Shown: positions 3,377 to 61,166 of the stretch, piece by piece | How positions within the stretch are numbered: the first letter of the stretch is position 1 | Layout: the number at the start of each line of letters is the position of its first letter | Assembly: GCA_947631005.1 (NCBI GenBank) | Contig: CANRJR010000001.1 | Coordinates: forward strand, 96,167-160,166 | DNA from: an uncultured Clostridia bacterium | GTDB taxonomy: Bacteria > Bacillota > Clostridia > Christensenellales > Borkfalkiaceae | Direction of reading: 5' to 3' | DNA: 64,000 bases | The notes under the pieces: model-generated | The model's input: the letters and a program-made list of their open reading frames with translations, nothing else | Databases searched by the model: none | Told to the model about the DNA's origin: nothing | Position numbers and translations under genes: made by a program

Positions 3377-3476
3377 CAATATGATTTGATATATAAGAAA
3401 GCCTTTTTTCATGGTAACATGGAACGCGAACGGGCATCCCCAATTTGTCATTCAGAGCGAAGCAGCTCTCTTAATC

Positions 3477-3648
3477 TGTCATTTCGCCCCGCCCGCGGCT
3501 TCTATTTGTAGACCAAGGGCGGCACGAGCCCGCAGGGCGAAGTGCCAAGCCGCTTCTCAATATGTCATTTCGCCCCGCCCGCGGCTTCTATTTGTAGACC
3601 AAGGGCGGCACGAGCCCGCAGGGCGAAGTACCAAGCCGCTTCTCAATC
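3477..3648. repeat. Two tandem 86-bp repeat units, with a third partial start
   Basis: tgtcatttcgccccgcccgcggcttctatttgtagaccaagggcggcacgagcccgcagggcgaagtrccaagccgcttctcaatm repeated with period 86. Confidence 0.9.
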
Positions 3649-3855
3649 TGTCATTTCGACCGAAGCGGCTCTCTTAATATATCATTTCGCCCCGCCCACG
3701 GCTTCCAATATGTCATTTCGACCGAAGCGGGCGAAGCCCGCGAAGTGGAGAAATCCCCTTGGTCGTTGATGATGTTTGTAATAAAAATAAGGGAGATTTC
3801 TCGACTACGGCTACGCCTCCGCTCGAAATGACATATTAGAAACGCTTTTAAGGCT

Positions 3856-4468
3856 TCCAATTATGTTGCGCGAGGAAAACCACGCTATTTTTGTCCCGCA
3901 AAAATACTACGTCTTTTTGCGGGAACCCTATACGCTGCGCCTTTGGGCGGCAGGGACCGCCGCAAAGCCCGTCGCGCCTGCCTGCGCTCCTGTCGCGGCG
4001 TTGTTCACAGCCCACAGGGCTGATGAACAGAAGCAACGCCGCTCCACCCAATTTGCCGCACACTTGCGGCTTATTGTCTTACAAAGCGAACGAGAGGACT
4101 AACCTAATTAAAGCGAGAGCTGGTTTCCCTCACGAAAAATGCTTTTGCCGACAAGCAAAAGCATTTTTCGTGAACGTTTCAATTTATGGCACGAGGAAAC
4201 CATAAAATGCGGGAGATTCTTCGCTTCGCTCTGAATGACATTATTAGAAACGCCTTTGAGGCTTCCAATTTACGGCGCGAGGAAAACCACGCTTTTCCGC
4301 TGCGCGACACAATTTGCCGCACACTTGCGGCTTATTGTCTTACAAAGCGAACGAGAGGATCAACCTAATTTAAGCGATAGTTGGTTTCCGTCACGAAATT
4401 TTCTTTTCGAAGACACGCGCGGCGCGAACGCGCAACGCGCACGGCACAAGAAAAGAAAATTTGTGAAC
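3856..4468. repeat. Composite multi-hairpin repeat element, copy 1, with two instances of its distal module (4055-4175 and 4316-4468)
   Basis: About 300 bp nearly identical to 59564-59882; ends in ...gtgaac directly at the stop codon of the ABC transporter gene. Confidence 0.85.
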
Positions 4469-6421
4469 TCACTCCAACTCAAACGCGCCCGTATAGAGCT
4501 GGTAATACTTGCCTTTCATCTCGATGAGCTGGTCGTGCGTGCCGCGTTCGATGATCCTGCCCTGTTCGAGCACCATGATGACGTTGGAATTTTTGACGGT
4601 GGAGAGGCGGTGGGCGATGACGAACACCGTTCTCCCCTCCATGAGTTTATCCATGCCGCGTTGGACGATGGCTTCGGTGCGGGTATCGATGGAGGACGTC
4701 GCCTCGTCGAGGATCATGACGGGCGGGTCGGCGACCGCGGCGCGCGCGATGGAAAGGAGCTGCCGCTGTCCCTGCGAGAGGTTCGCGCCGTTCTGGTGCA
4801 ACATCGTGTTGTAGCCCTCGGGCAGGCGGGTGATGAAGTCGTCCGCGCCCGCGAGTTTTGCCGCCGCGATGCACTCCTCGTCCGTCGCGTCGAGCTTGCC
4901 GTAGCGGATGTTGTCCATGACCGTCCCCGTGAAGAGGTTGGTGTCCTGCAAGACCATGCCGATCGCGCGGCGAAGCTCCCCTTTCTTGATCTTACTCACG
5001 TTGATCCCGTCGTAGCGGATCTTGCCGTCCTGAATGTCGTAGAAGCGGGTGAGCAGGTTGGTGATGGTGGTTTTCCCCGCGCCCGTCGCGCCGACGAAGG
5101 CGACCTTTTGTCCGGGGCGGGCGTAGAGGGAGATGTCGTGCAAGACGATCTTATCGGGCGTATAGCCGAAGTCGACGTCGAACATTCTCACGTCGCCCGC
5201 GAGCCGTTCGTAGGTGACCGTGCCGTCGGCGTGGGGATGTTTCCACGCCCAAATGCCCGTCCGTTCGGCGCATTCCACGAGCTTTCCGTCCTCCTCGCGG
5301 GCGTTGACGAGCGTGACATACCCCTCGTCCTCCTCGGGCTTTTCGTCGATGAGGGCGAACAGACGCGCCGCGCCCGCAAGACCCATGATGACGGGGTTGA
5401 CCTGGTTGGAAACCTGGTTGATGTTATTGGAGAACTGCCGCGTCATTTGCAGGAAGGCGACGACGAGCGGGATGCTGAAATACGCGCCTGAACCGCCGAA
5501 CAGCAGCGACAGACCGACGTTCTGCGTATGGTGGATGATGAACACGCCGCCCAAAATGGCAACGAGCACGTAGAAGATATGTCCGAGGTTGCCGAGAATG
5601 GGCATGAGCATATTTGCGTACGCGTTCGCCTGCGTCGACTGTTTGCAGAGCGCGTCGTTCACGTTGTTGAAGTCGGCTTTCGCCGCCTCTTCATGACAGA
5701 ACACCTTGACGACTTTCTGACCGTTCATCATCTCTTCGACGAACCCCTCGGTGCGCGCGATGGACGTCTGCATGGCGAGGAAGAACTTTCCCGCGCCGCC
5801 GCCCACGATCTTGGTGACGAGGAAGATGACGACGATCCCGCCGAGCACGATCAGAAGCAGGTAGACGCTGTACCAGAGCATGATGCAGAACAGGGTGAAC
5901 ACCATGACGCCCGAGGTCAACAGTTGCGGCAACGATTGGGAAACGACCTGCCGCAGCGTATCGATGTCGTTGGTGTAATAGCTCATGATGTCGCCGTGGC
6001 TGTGCGTATCGAAGTAGCGGATGGGAAGATCCTGCATGCCGTCGAACATTGCCCCGCGCATCTGTTTGAGGTAGCCCTGCGTGATGATCGCCATGAGCTG
6101 TTTGTCGACCGCCCCCGCGACGAGGGAGACGACGTACAGCCCGATGAGGATGCACATGAAGCGGGTGATGTCCTTGCCGTAGACCGCCCAGCCGAGCGAA
6201 AGATCGGCGGTTTCGAGCACGGTGAAGATGCGTTCCATGAAAATGGACGGAAGCGCGCTGATGATCGCGTTGAATACGATGAGGATGAGCGTGAGCGTCA
6301 ACATCTTGGGATAGAAATGGAAAACCGATTTGATGACGCGCTTCATCGTCCCCTTGGGCGCGCCTTTGGGCGCGCCCATGCCGCCCCTGCCGCCTCTTCT
6401 GACATTCATATTCATTTTCAT
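4469..6421 (-). CDS. ABC exporter, fused permease and ATP-binding subunit (canonical NBD)
   Basis: Walker A GATGAGKTT, signature NLSQGQRQL, Walker B VMILDEATSSID, N-terminal TMD. Confidence 0.92.
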   Translation of the reverse strand: MKMNMNVRRGGRGGMGAPKGAPKGTMKRVIKSVFHFYPKMLTLTLILIVFNAIISALPSIFMERIFTVLETADLSLGWAVYGKDITRFMCILIGLYVVSLVAGAVDKQLMAIITQGYLKQMRGAMFDGMQDLPIRYFDTHSHGDIMSYYTNDIDTLRQVVSQSLPQLLTSGVMVFTLFCIMLWYSVYLLLIVLGGIVVIFLVTKIVGGGAGKFFLAMQTSIARTEGFVEEMMNGQKVVKVFCHEEAAKADFNNVNDALCKQSTQANAYANMLMPILGNLGHIFYVLVAILGGVFIIHHTQNVGLSLLFGGSGAYFSIPLVVAFLQMTRQFSNNINQVSNQVNPVIMGLAGAARLFALIDEKPEEDEGYVTLVNAREEDGKLVECAERTGIWAWKHPHADGTVTYERLAGDVRMFDVDFGYTPDKIVLHDISLYARPGQKVAFVGATGAGKTTITNLLTRFYDIQDGKIRYDGINVSKIKKGELRRAIGMVLQDTNLFTGTVMDNIRYGKLDATDEECIAAAKLAGADDFITRLPEGYNTMLHQNGANLSQGQRQLLSIARAAVADPPVMILDEATSSIDTRTEAIVQRGMDKLMEGRTVFVIAHRLSTVKNSNVIMVLEQGRIIERGTHDQLIEMKGKYYQLYTGAFELE

Positions 6422-10128: not shown

Positions 10129-10204
10129 GGGCCTTTAGCGCAGTGGTTAGAGCAGTCGGCTCATAACCGATCGGTCCGCGGTTCGAATCCGTGAAGGCCC
10201 ACCA
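10129..10204 (+). tRNA. tRNA-Met (anticodon CAT)
   Basis: Cloverleaf with encoded CCA; anticodon loop ctcataa. Elongator Met versus tRNA-Ile2 not resolved. Confidence 0.9.
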
Positions 10205-10244
10205 CATTGTCGGAAACGGCATTTGCTTTCGCGGTAAATCAAAT

Positions 10245-10321
10245 GGCCCAATAGCTCAGTTGGTTAGAGCGCCAGCCTGTCACGCTGGAGGTCGACGGTT
10301 CGAGCCCGTTTTGGGTCGCCA
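10245..10321 (+). tRNA. tRNA-Asp (GTC)
   Basis: Cloverleaf with encoded CCA; anticodon loop ctgtcac. Confidence 0.96.
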
Positions 10322-10328
10322 AACAACA

Positions 10329-10356
10329 GGAGCTTCATTCGGCGGAATGAAGCTCC
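10329..10356. other. Perfect 12-bp hairpin in the tRNA-Asp/tRNA-Phe spacer
   Basis: GGAGCTTCATTC ggcg GAATGAAGCTCC. Confidence 0.9.
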
Positions 10357-10376
10357 CGCCTTGCAAAAGGCGTCAT

Positions 10377-10452
10377 GCCTTGGTAGCTCAGATGGTAGAG
10401 CAACGGACTGAAAATCCGTCTGTCGGTGGTTCGATTCCGCCCCAAGGCACCA
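10377..10452 (+). tRNA. tRNA-Phe (GAA)
   Basis: Cloverleaf with encoded CCA; loop ctgaaaa. Confidence 0.96.
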
Positions 10453-10454
10453 CA

Positions 10455-10531
<77 letters not shown>

Positions 10532-10558
10532 CCGAACGACGTAAAAATGAATATATAT

Positions 10559-10643
10559 GGGCAGATTCCAGAGCGGCCAAATGGATCAGACTGTAAATCT
10601 GACGTCTACGACTTCGGTAGTTCGAATCTACCTCTGCCCACCA
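10559..10643 (+). tRNA. tRNA-Tyr (GTA), long variable arm
   Basis: 85 nt, class II cloverleaf with CCA; loop ctgtaaa. Confidence 0.95.
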
Positions 10644-59216: not shown

Positions 59217-59247
59217 TCGCGAAAAAATACTTCGTCTTTTTTCGCGA
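59217..59247. repeat. Isolated alpha hairpin of the composite repeat family
   Basis: TCGCGAAAAAA tacttcgtc TTTTTTCGCGA. Confidence 0.8.
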
Positions 59248-59563
59248 GGAAAAGCGGAATAGCATATTAGAAACGAATAGGCATTCCAATCTGTCATTTC
59301 GCCCCCCGCTTCTTATATGTCATTCCGCCCCCGTTTCTTATATGTTGTCATTTCGAGCAAGCGAGTGAAACGAGCGCGTCGAGAAATCTCCCTTATTATA
59401 TTGCAAGCCTAATCAACGACCAAGAGGATTTCTCCGCGCGCTCACTGCGTTCGCTTGGTCGAAATGACAGAAAAAAGGCGAAATGACAACGGACAATAAG
59501 CAAATGTAAGACTGCGGGAGATTCTTCGCTTCGCTCTGAATGACAAATCGGAAGCACTTTTCA

Positions 59564-60053
59564 GGCTTCCTATCATGTTGCGCGAGGAAAACTACGCTAT
59601 TTTTATCCCACAAAAATACTACGCCTTTTTGCGGGAACCCTATACGCTGCGCCTTTGGGCGGCAGGGACCGCCGCAAAGCCCGTCGCGCCTGCCTGCGCT
59701 CCTGTCGCGGCGTTGTTCACAGCCCACAGGGCTGATGAACAGAAGCAACGCCGCTCCACCCAATTTGCGCGAAACCTCGCGCTTATTGTCTTACAAAGCG
59801 AACGAGACGACTAATTTCATTAAAGCGAGAGCTGGTTTCCCTCACGAAATTTTGTTTTGCCCGCAAAACAAAATTTGTGAACCGTTCCAAATAACGGCGT
59901 TAGGTGGAATTCACTTCCACCGTGCGCGACACAATTTGCCGCACACTTGCGGCTTATTGTCTTACAAAGCGAACGAGACGACTAATTTCATTAAAGCGAG
60001 AGCCCATTTCCCTCACGAAATTTTGTTTTGCCCGCAAAACAAAATTTGTGAAC
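59564..60053. repeat. Composite multi-hairpin repeat element, copy 2, with two distal modules (59767-59882 and 59938-60053)
   Basis: About 300 bp nearly identical to 3856-4175; ends in gtgaac directly at the stop codon of the next gene. Confidence 0.85.
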
Positions 60054-61166
60054 CTATTTTCTGATAATCTCCACGATCTTCCGAACGGCGGCGTCCACGT
60101 CGTCGCCGACGTTGAGGTCGACGTCGCAGACCTCGCTGTTGCGGTACTCGAAGTCGAGCGACATAATGCGGCGGGTCTTGTCCTCGATGTCGATGTCGCG
60201 GGCGATGATGCTCTTGATGGCGTCGGCGCGTTCGCGGCGGGTAAACACGAGCATGGCGCGGTGGCGGTACAAATTTTTGAGCGTGATCGCGCCGCAGATG
60301 TCGATGGGGATGACGGCGACGTGACCGCGGTCCACGATGGGTTGGATGTCCTTATCCGACGTGCCGAAGTGGAAGCCGCTGTACACGGTGGTCTCGATGT
60401 AGTGTCCCGCCTTCATTTCGGCGACGAAGCGATCTTCGCTGATGAAGCGGTACGCCGACGCGTCCTCTTTGGGACGGCGGGGACGGGTGGTGGAAGTGAG
60501 CGGCTTTTCGAAGCCTTCGAGGGAGGTCAAGCCGTTCGCGATCTCGGTTTTAGACGACCCCGACGGACCGACGAGGCAGAGCACGCCGCCCTCCGAAAGT
60601 TGCGGGAACGTTTCGGAGAAGGAATTGCGGACCATCTCACAGAAGTGCAAAAAGTCGTCGTAGCTGTTCACGGAGAGCAGTCCCGAGAGGTTGGTATTCC
60701 ACGGTTTGCGGAAGAGGACGGGGTACGCCGCGCGCGAGCTGGAAATGTTGTGCGCGCCGTCGTCGAGCATGATGTCGAGGGAGATGATGTCCTTCCGCGT
60801 TCCGACGATGATATTTTGGGACGGGATCTCGGGGAAGTCCTGTACGAGGCGTTCTGCACGCGCGCTCATACAGCAGGGCGGGACGGCGGTGATGAGGAAC
60901 ACGTCGGCGATTTCGCAGAGTTTTCTCACGAACTCCTGCGCGCCCGCGCAAATGGGCTGGGTGCGGACGAACTCGGGGTCGGAATAGAGCGCGATGCGCT
61001 CTTCGGGGTGTCTGCCGCTCTTGCCCCAGCTGTTGATCTCTTCGAGCCGCATGGGTTCTTCGTCGGGGTGGCGGCTGTTGATGATGGTCACGGCATAGGA
61101 ATTACACTCGTAAAGCGTATCGTCGACGTCGAGCCCGATACGGATTCTGTATTTTCTCATATTCAC
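60054..61166 (-). CDS. HAD 5'(3')-deoxyribonucleotidase-like domain fused to a guanylate kinase-like domain
   Basis: N: IGLDVDDTLYECNSYAVT...VFLITAVPP...IMLDDGAHN; C: LCLVGPSGSSKTEIANGL, TSTTRPRRPKEDASAYRFISEDRFVAEMKAGHYIETTVYSGFHFGT. Confidence 0.82.
   Translation of the reverse strand: MNMRKYRIRIGLDVDDTLYECNSYAVTIINSRHPDEEPMRLEEINSWGKSGRHPEERIALYSDPEFVRTQPICAGAQEFVRKLCEIADVFLITAVPPCCMSARAERLVQDFPEIPSQNIIVGTRKDIISLDIMLDDGAHNISSSRAAYPVLFRKPWNTNLSGLLSVNSYDDFLHFCEMVRNSFSETFPQLSEGGVLCLVGPSGSSKTEIANGLTSLEGFEKPLTSTTRPRRPKEDASAYRFISEDRFVAEMKAGHYIETTVYSGFHFGTSDKDIQPIVDRGHVAVIPIDICGAITLKNLYRHRAMLVFTRRERADAIKSIIARDIDIEDKTRRIMSLDFEYRNSEVCDVDLNVGDDVDAAVRKIVEIIRK

Follow-up and report, generated by a model that had tools for sequence, protein, structure and literature searches.

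The 64-kb stretch of DNA analyzed here (the window) carries four units of what is probably an undescribed mosaic, multi-hairpin interspersed repeat of the BIME/BOX/bcr kind, belonging to one genus of uncultured Clostridia and matched weakly in other genera. No family that we found describes these repeats, and their combination of docking at gene ends with apparent swapping of whole hairpins is unusual. The literature held no described family for them in these Clostridia, and Rfam, at both gathering and permissive thresholds, returned only tRNAs in the window (five tRNA genes are clustered at 10129-10640) and only sub-threshold microRNA-like matches for the element, in line with a first-pass annotation of the window that had recognized no named family.

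The window holds two loci, each an array of two units (1a and 1b, 2a and 2b; Table 1). The first-pass annotation had taken these for two copies of a repeat; they are in fact four units of a family with about 50 members in the host genome. All the sequences that it quoted are in place, and the hairpins at 3895-3923, 4055-4070, 4131-4172, 59767-59782, and 59843-59879 are as it wrote them. The near-identical ∼300 bp that it reported as shared is borne out at 92% identity over 284 aligned columns (3856-4130 against 59560-59842), but much of this is the sub-block at 3856-4036, comprising the alpha hairpin and hairpin A variant A4, which occurs in five near-full copies with 96 to 100% identity, suggesting from sequence comparison that it spread recently as one piece. 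The 200 bp upstream of the two copies are 93% identical. The same annotation had paired the alpha hairpin of array 1 with a second one at 59217-59247; the sequences are as quoted, but the latter is a lone alpha-like hairpin (TCGCGAAAAAATACTTCGTCTTTTTTCGCGA) that belongs to no repeat unit and stands shortly before the likely start of a metallophosphatase gene.

Table 1 Features of the two repeat arrays and the adjoining genes in the window
Feature	Position	Strand	Basis
Alpha hairpin, array 1, distal sub-block, CCCGCAAAAA..TTTTTGCGGG	3895-3923		Sequence; sub-block in five near-full copies
Hairpin A variant A4 (GCGGCGTTG..CAACGCCGC), distal module, unit 1a	3995-4042	-	Variant common to five copies
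Hairpin B, unit 1a, GCCGCA cact TGCGGC	4055-4070	-	Sequence, covariation alignment
Linker, unit 1a, conserved flanks CTTATTGTC..TTTCCC (+ strand)	4071-4129	-	Copy comparison
Hairpin C, unit 1a, perfect 19-bp stem	4130-4173	-	Inverted repeat
Hairpin A variant A1 (GCGC-GA-GGAAAA..TTTTCC-GCT-GCGC), unit 1b	4275-4305	-	Sequence, copy comparison
Hairpin B, unit 1b	4316-4331	-	Sequence, copy comparison
Linker, unit 1b	4332-4390	-	Copy comparison
Hairpin C, unit 1b, large G+C-rich inner part, closest to stop codon	4391-4466	-	Sequence, folding
ABC transporter gene, stop codon 4469-4471 abuts element	4469-6421	-	GTGAAC ends at 4468
Alpha hairpin, array 2	59607-59635		Sequence
Hairpin A variant A4, unit 2a	59707-59754	-	Sequence, copy comparison
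Hairpin B, unit 2a, other allele GCGCGA aacc TCGCGC	59767-59782	-	Sequence, copy comparison
Linker, unit 2a	59783-59841	-	Copy comparison
Hairpin C, unit 2a	59842-59880	-	Sequence, inverted repeat
Hairpin A variant A2 (GGTGGAA ttcac TTCCACC core), unit 2b	59897-59927	-	Sequence, copy comparison
Hairpin B, unit 2b, GCCGCA cact TGCGGC	59938-59953	-	Sequence, copy comparison
Linker, unit 2b, near-identical to unit 2a linker despite different hairpins A and B	59954-60012	-	Sequence
Hairpin C, unit 2b, closest to stop codon	60013-60051	-	Sequence, folding
NT5C (5'-nucleotidase) + guanylate-kinase domain gene, stop codon 60054-60056 abuts element	60054-61166	-	Domain match

Read on the gene strand, each unit runs from hairpin C through a linker of ∼45 nt to hairpin B and then hairpin A, so that three different hairpins are packed into 130 to 210 nt; linker, hairpin B, and hairpin C form the core of the family. 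Units are solitary or tandem and lie head-to-tail within arrays. Hairpin C begins with TTCAC or TTCGC a few nucleotides 3' of the stop codon. In the host genome, its stem comes in four or more types that enclose inner parts of 2 to ∼40 nt, and the linker falls into two main sequence classes. Hairpin B, 16 nt long, has an RGNN loop and is flanked by the words GACAATAAG and CAAATTG, which are conserved and unpaired. Its stem in the host genome is mainly GCCGCA-NNNN-TGCGGC or GCGCGA-NNNN-TCGCGC, to which other species add further stems, and the hairpin A slot has at least four alternatives in the host genome. In the related genome G093, the loop of hairpin C can hold other hairpin repeats. The intergenic regions of the window contain other repeats as well: two 86-nt tandem copies at 3469-3640, 97% identical, form another hairpin-rich repeat (GTCATTTCGCCCCGCCCGCGGCTTC...), part of which (GGGCGGCACGAGCCC..GGGCGAAGTAG) serves as a hairpin A alternative in other units, and the inverted repeats TGTCATTTCGA..TCGAAATGACA at 3703-3841 and 59346-59469 represent another dispersed type that in G093 is also nested within hairpin C loops.

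One unit, used as the query against the host genome, gave 60 matches at E≤0.001, corresponding to about 50 distinct units, with the remainder being overlaps or reverse matches of the palindromic stems. The search of host and relatives proposed in the first-pass annotation thus revealed a large family: a covariance model matched 84 of 103 congeneric genomes (E≤1e-4), many of them with at least 34 scored matches each, and the other 19 gave none. Of 18 genera of the family, 4 gave matches, which were weak outside the genus, and 32 were listed in a 400-kb sample of G093. The named records that contain the core pattern are metagenome-assembled genomes labeled "uncultured Clostridia bacterium," many with "Lapin" isolate labels that suggest an origin in the rabbit gut. 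Neither a distant search of a phage collection nor an exact-pattern search of viral contigs matched the element.

Within the host genome, the modules assort freely, with few discrete alleles per slot. When 50 host-genome units were typed in four slots, 35 combinations were found and no pair of slots was significantly associated (p from 0.09 to 0.86), and the adjacent units at 59753-59883 and 59924-60054 are almost letter-identical in linker and hairpin C while differing in hairpins A and B. Given so few alleles assorting freely, paired substitutions within the genome are mostly exchanges of whole hairpins rather than stepwise compensation, and for that reason the four modules in the window are by themselves no proof of selection on structure.

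The comparison across species is better evidence of such selection. Thirty-four units, 17 of them from the host and the others from about 12 further species, were aligned with MAFFT without regard to structure, and the consensus fold of this alignment comprises 14 pairs, 9 of them changed on both sides. Pairing persists as stem sequences diverge: 95.8% of cells are paired, versus 80.4% after shuffling, and covariation scores 0.449, which 0 of 500 shuffles reached, versus 0.167 when shuffled. Sliding the pairing partners, the sole control for sequence kinship in this test, left only 24 to 44% of cells paired. These figures are underestimates, since the outer stem of hairpin A was excluded from the count owing to a one-column misalignment between subgroups. 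As RNA, the two window units that were folded did better than dinucleotide shuffles (z of -2.8 and -3.7). The first-pass proposal that paired substitutions reflect structural selection therefore holds across species, but within the genome it gives way mostly to hairpin swaps. The same figures make it very improbable that these are ordinary decaying repeats whose apparent compensation arose by chance, even though copies do show point changes and truncations.

The position of the arrays is sharply defined. With gene calls from our own codon-bias script rather than a published caller, a gene points into the hairpin C end in 31 of the 36 host arrays, in 16 of 20 from other congeners, and in 20 of the 24 determinable arrays of the 400-kb G093 sample, which were counted by hand. 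Pooled, this amounts to 67 of 80 arrays (binomial, 3e-10), with 16% of arrays violating the stop-codon rule. The element commonly starts 0 to 15 nt from the stop codon, and both window arrays touch it; on the far side, the next gene in the host genome is usually hundreds of bases away and may have either orientation. The genes that carry the element are unrelated and include chromosomal core genes such as rlmH. Some loci (L203, L204, L202, L177, L003, L006, L041, and L048) have 12 to 14 nt between the stop codon and hairpin C, for example, GTTCACAAAGAA in the host genome and TTTCGCACATTTA in G093, and these segments of near-constant length can be read as the ends of earlier units. They were recognized by reading the sequences, as an automatic ungapped search found few of them owing to a bulge in hairpin C. 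The first-pass description of a repeat-borne, structure-constrained 3'-UTR element is thus upheld, both by pairing kept over 34 copies and by location behind stop codons.

Orthologous gene ends show that a given site may carry the element in one species and lack it in the next. Orthologs of the gene at 60054-61166 were found in 29 sampled congeners, 28 nearly full-length and one partial, and none of the 29 searched loci has a clear match to the element (L104 gave a borderline 17.5-bit match). The combination of NT5C and guanylate-kinase domains in one protein, as in this gene, is found in about half of the sampled congeners. The best 30 loci were compared for rlmH, which is single copy in nearly all congeners. 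Where the element is absent, the next gene begins 16 to 55 nt past the rlmH stop codon in 18 of the 30 loci, and two other element-free loci have a 103-nt gap and no placed next gene, respectively. The site is filled in nine related species (G005, G006, G102, G098, G049, G040, G060, G100, and G093) and in G101, with a unit directly 3' of the stop codon and, where measurable, a gap of 251 to 1,139 nt. The gene after rlmH (L211-L230) has an A/T-rich, -10-like box (CATACAAT, CATAAGAT) ∼6 nt ahead of its start codon, as a leaderless transcript would require, and this box is preserved at the filled sites. The hairpin C types at rlmH differ across the nine species (TTCACGAAAAATC, TTTCGCACAATTC, TTTCACGCGTTTC, and TTCACGGCATTTC), yet each is self-complementary, and in G102 and G098 a retained segment, GTTCACGAGATTA, separates the stop codon from a newer hairpin. 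The contrast between filled and empty rlmH sites supports dispersal, the sense in which the earlier suggestion of a non-autonomous mobile element holds. As for a mobilizing enzyme, the host genome contains neither a Y1 transposase nor a reverse transcriptase.

The shortest account of these observations, and the one that we consider probable, casts the element as a parasite or commensal living in 3' UTRs, much like BIME or BOX, and tolerated with its hairpins after the stop codon. Copying would place units in the narrow space that follows a stop codon, a site at which transcript hairpins may be nearly harmless, and whole hairpin modules would later be exchanged between copies, perhaps by gene conversion or by template switching at hairpins; exchange of whole hairpins would explain why each one stays self-complementary. 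The element would be transcribed as the first part of a 3' UTR or within an operon gap, where, by analogy with REP in Escherichia coli, it probably acts passively as a block to 3' exonucleases and, so near the stop codon, possibly drags terminating ribosomes. The docking is sharper than passive tolerance alone predicts, which counts against this explanation, as do the absence of a Y1 transposase and a reverse transcriptase from the host genome and the 16% of arrays that break the stop-codon rule.

The main rival is benefit to the host, in which the hairpins form a useful 3'-UTR RNA selected for mRNA stability or processing or for regulation of the upstream gene, with exchange between copies amounting to concerted evolution. 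We regard this as possible, if unlikely. The sense orientation in 67 of 80 arrays, the conserved structure with its covariation, and the conserved unpaired words around hairpin B together with its RGNN loop all fit such a role, and the persistence of the element at rlmH throughout a nine-species clade could reflect benefit rather than parasitism. Against it, the carrier genes are unrelated, the ortholog loci searched are usually without the element, and the element went entirely unmatched in 19 of the 103 congeners. The strand test also lacks a clear RNA-strand signal, with G-U to A-C counts on the gene strand of 4:0 for hairpin B and 7:7 for hairpin C after removal of duplicates; the hairpin C count of 97:30 before near-identical copies and stray hairpins were removed was inflated.

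It is also conceivable, though doubtful, that a dedicated process inserts units in sense orientation at the 3' edge of the stop codon, swaps hairpins slot by slot, and leaves the 12- to 14-nt remnants. An intrinsic terminator family that replaces the normal terminator of each gene is improbable. Hairpin C does occupy the terminator position, several element-free orthologs of the gene at 60054 end in ordinary hairpin-plus-T terminators, and terminator-like sites in the first 100 nt are, if anything, rarer where the element is present (4/34) than where it is absent (71/241), as though it took their place. However, none of the three hairpins is followed by a T-run on the gene strand, terminator-like sites in a scan of each array did not clearly outnumber those in shuffles, and at rlmH the element occupies what is elsewhere an operon-sized gap.

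REP units are short palindromes of 20 to 40 nt with a GTAG/GTGG-type tag, BIMEs alternate in orientation, and the associated enzyme is a RAYT transposase. The element resembles such repeats in its palindromic units, tandem arrays, 3' positions, and mosaic makeup, but it differs in its units of 130 to 210 nt, in having three hairpins, and in its head-to-tail order, and no GTAG/GTGG tag is present at the hairpin foot in the listed copies. Movement by a single-copy Y1 (IS200-like) transposase is hardly tenable and is contradicted for the host, whose 99.9% complete genome has no Y1 transposase. Among the 103 congeners, 25 encode Y1, including the repeat-free G017, G012, G037, G048, G069, and G074, most of the repeat-rich genomes lack it, and the two show no association. 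An integron-like array with each unit as an attC site is barely credible: a structured, sequence-variable site right after stop codons in one orientation would suit it, but none of the 103 genomes has an integrase above the curated cutoff, the unit ends lack RYYYAAC/GTTRRRY boxes, the arrays repeat sites in tandem rather than gene cassettes, and the upstream genes include chromosomal core genes (rlmH).

The mosaic, tolerated 3'-UTR repeat that we favor has its closest likenesses among known bacterial repeats, and it works like BIME and BOX while lacking the features that define REP/RAYT. REP/BIME are mosaic extragenic arrays of palindromic units, a share of which follow a stop codon at a distance of no more than 15 nt (PMC2817692, PMC12306157), and the element is likewise mosaic, extragenic, and palindromic, with arrays commonly this close to upstream stop codons. 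REPs less than 16 nt from the stop codon in E. coli are reported to lower translation and stall ribosomes (PMC12306157), an effect that by analogy may also apply here. The BOX elements of Streptococcus pneumoniae (boxA-boxB-boxC) are modular repeats with tandem variants and strong RNA structure that are regarded as parasitic (PMC3049150), and the element is likewise a composite of modules with tandem variants and strong structure. BOX modules, however, have a fixed order and a variable number of boxB, whereas the slots described here hold freely assorting alternative hairpins, with discrete modules combined differently across copies (35 combinations in 50 units), and, unlike BOX, the element docks at stop codons with one end. 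The bcr1-bcr18 repeats of the Bacillus cereus group are intergenic, some of them structure-conserved, and are transcribed in UTRs and operon gaps (PMC3446304). The element is similar to them as an intergenic family with conserved secondary structure; bcr1-bcr3 are described as MITE-like, and the description consulted mentions neither modular slots nor stop-codon docking. RUP, SPRITE, and other MITE-like repeats are short, structured, dispersed, and non-coding (PMC3049150). Hairpin C alone could be read as an inverted repeat, and filled and empty sites occur between relatives both at rlmH and at the gene at 60054-61166, but the whole unit has no recognizable pair of terminal inverted repeats or target duplication in a comparison made between species rather than close strain pairs.

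BIMEs and BOX pose an old puzzle, namely, whether such repeats are parasites or useful parts of 3' UTRs. In this genus of ∼100 species, the same gene ends occur with and without a unit, the hairpin alleles are discrete, and docking at stop codons is sharp, which allows insertion, turnover, and effect on the gene to be compared site by site. If the docking at stop codons is active and not the result of selection, it points to a new mechanism, and dedicated insertion, if true, would be a new way to attach and reshuffle 3'-UTR RNA modules genome-wide.
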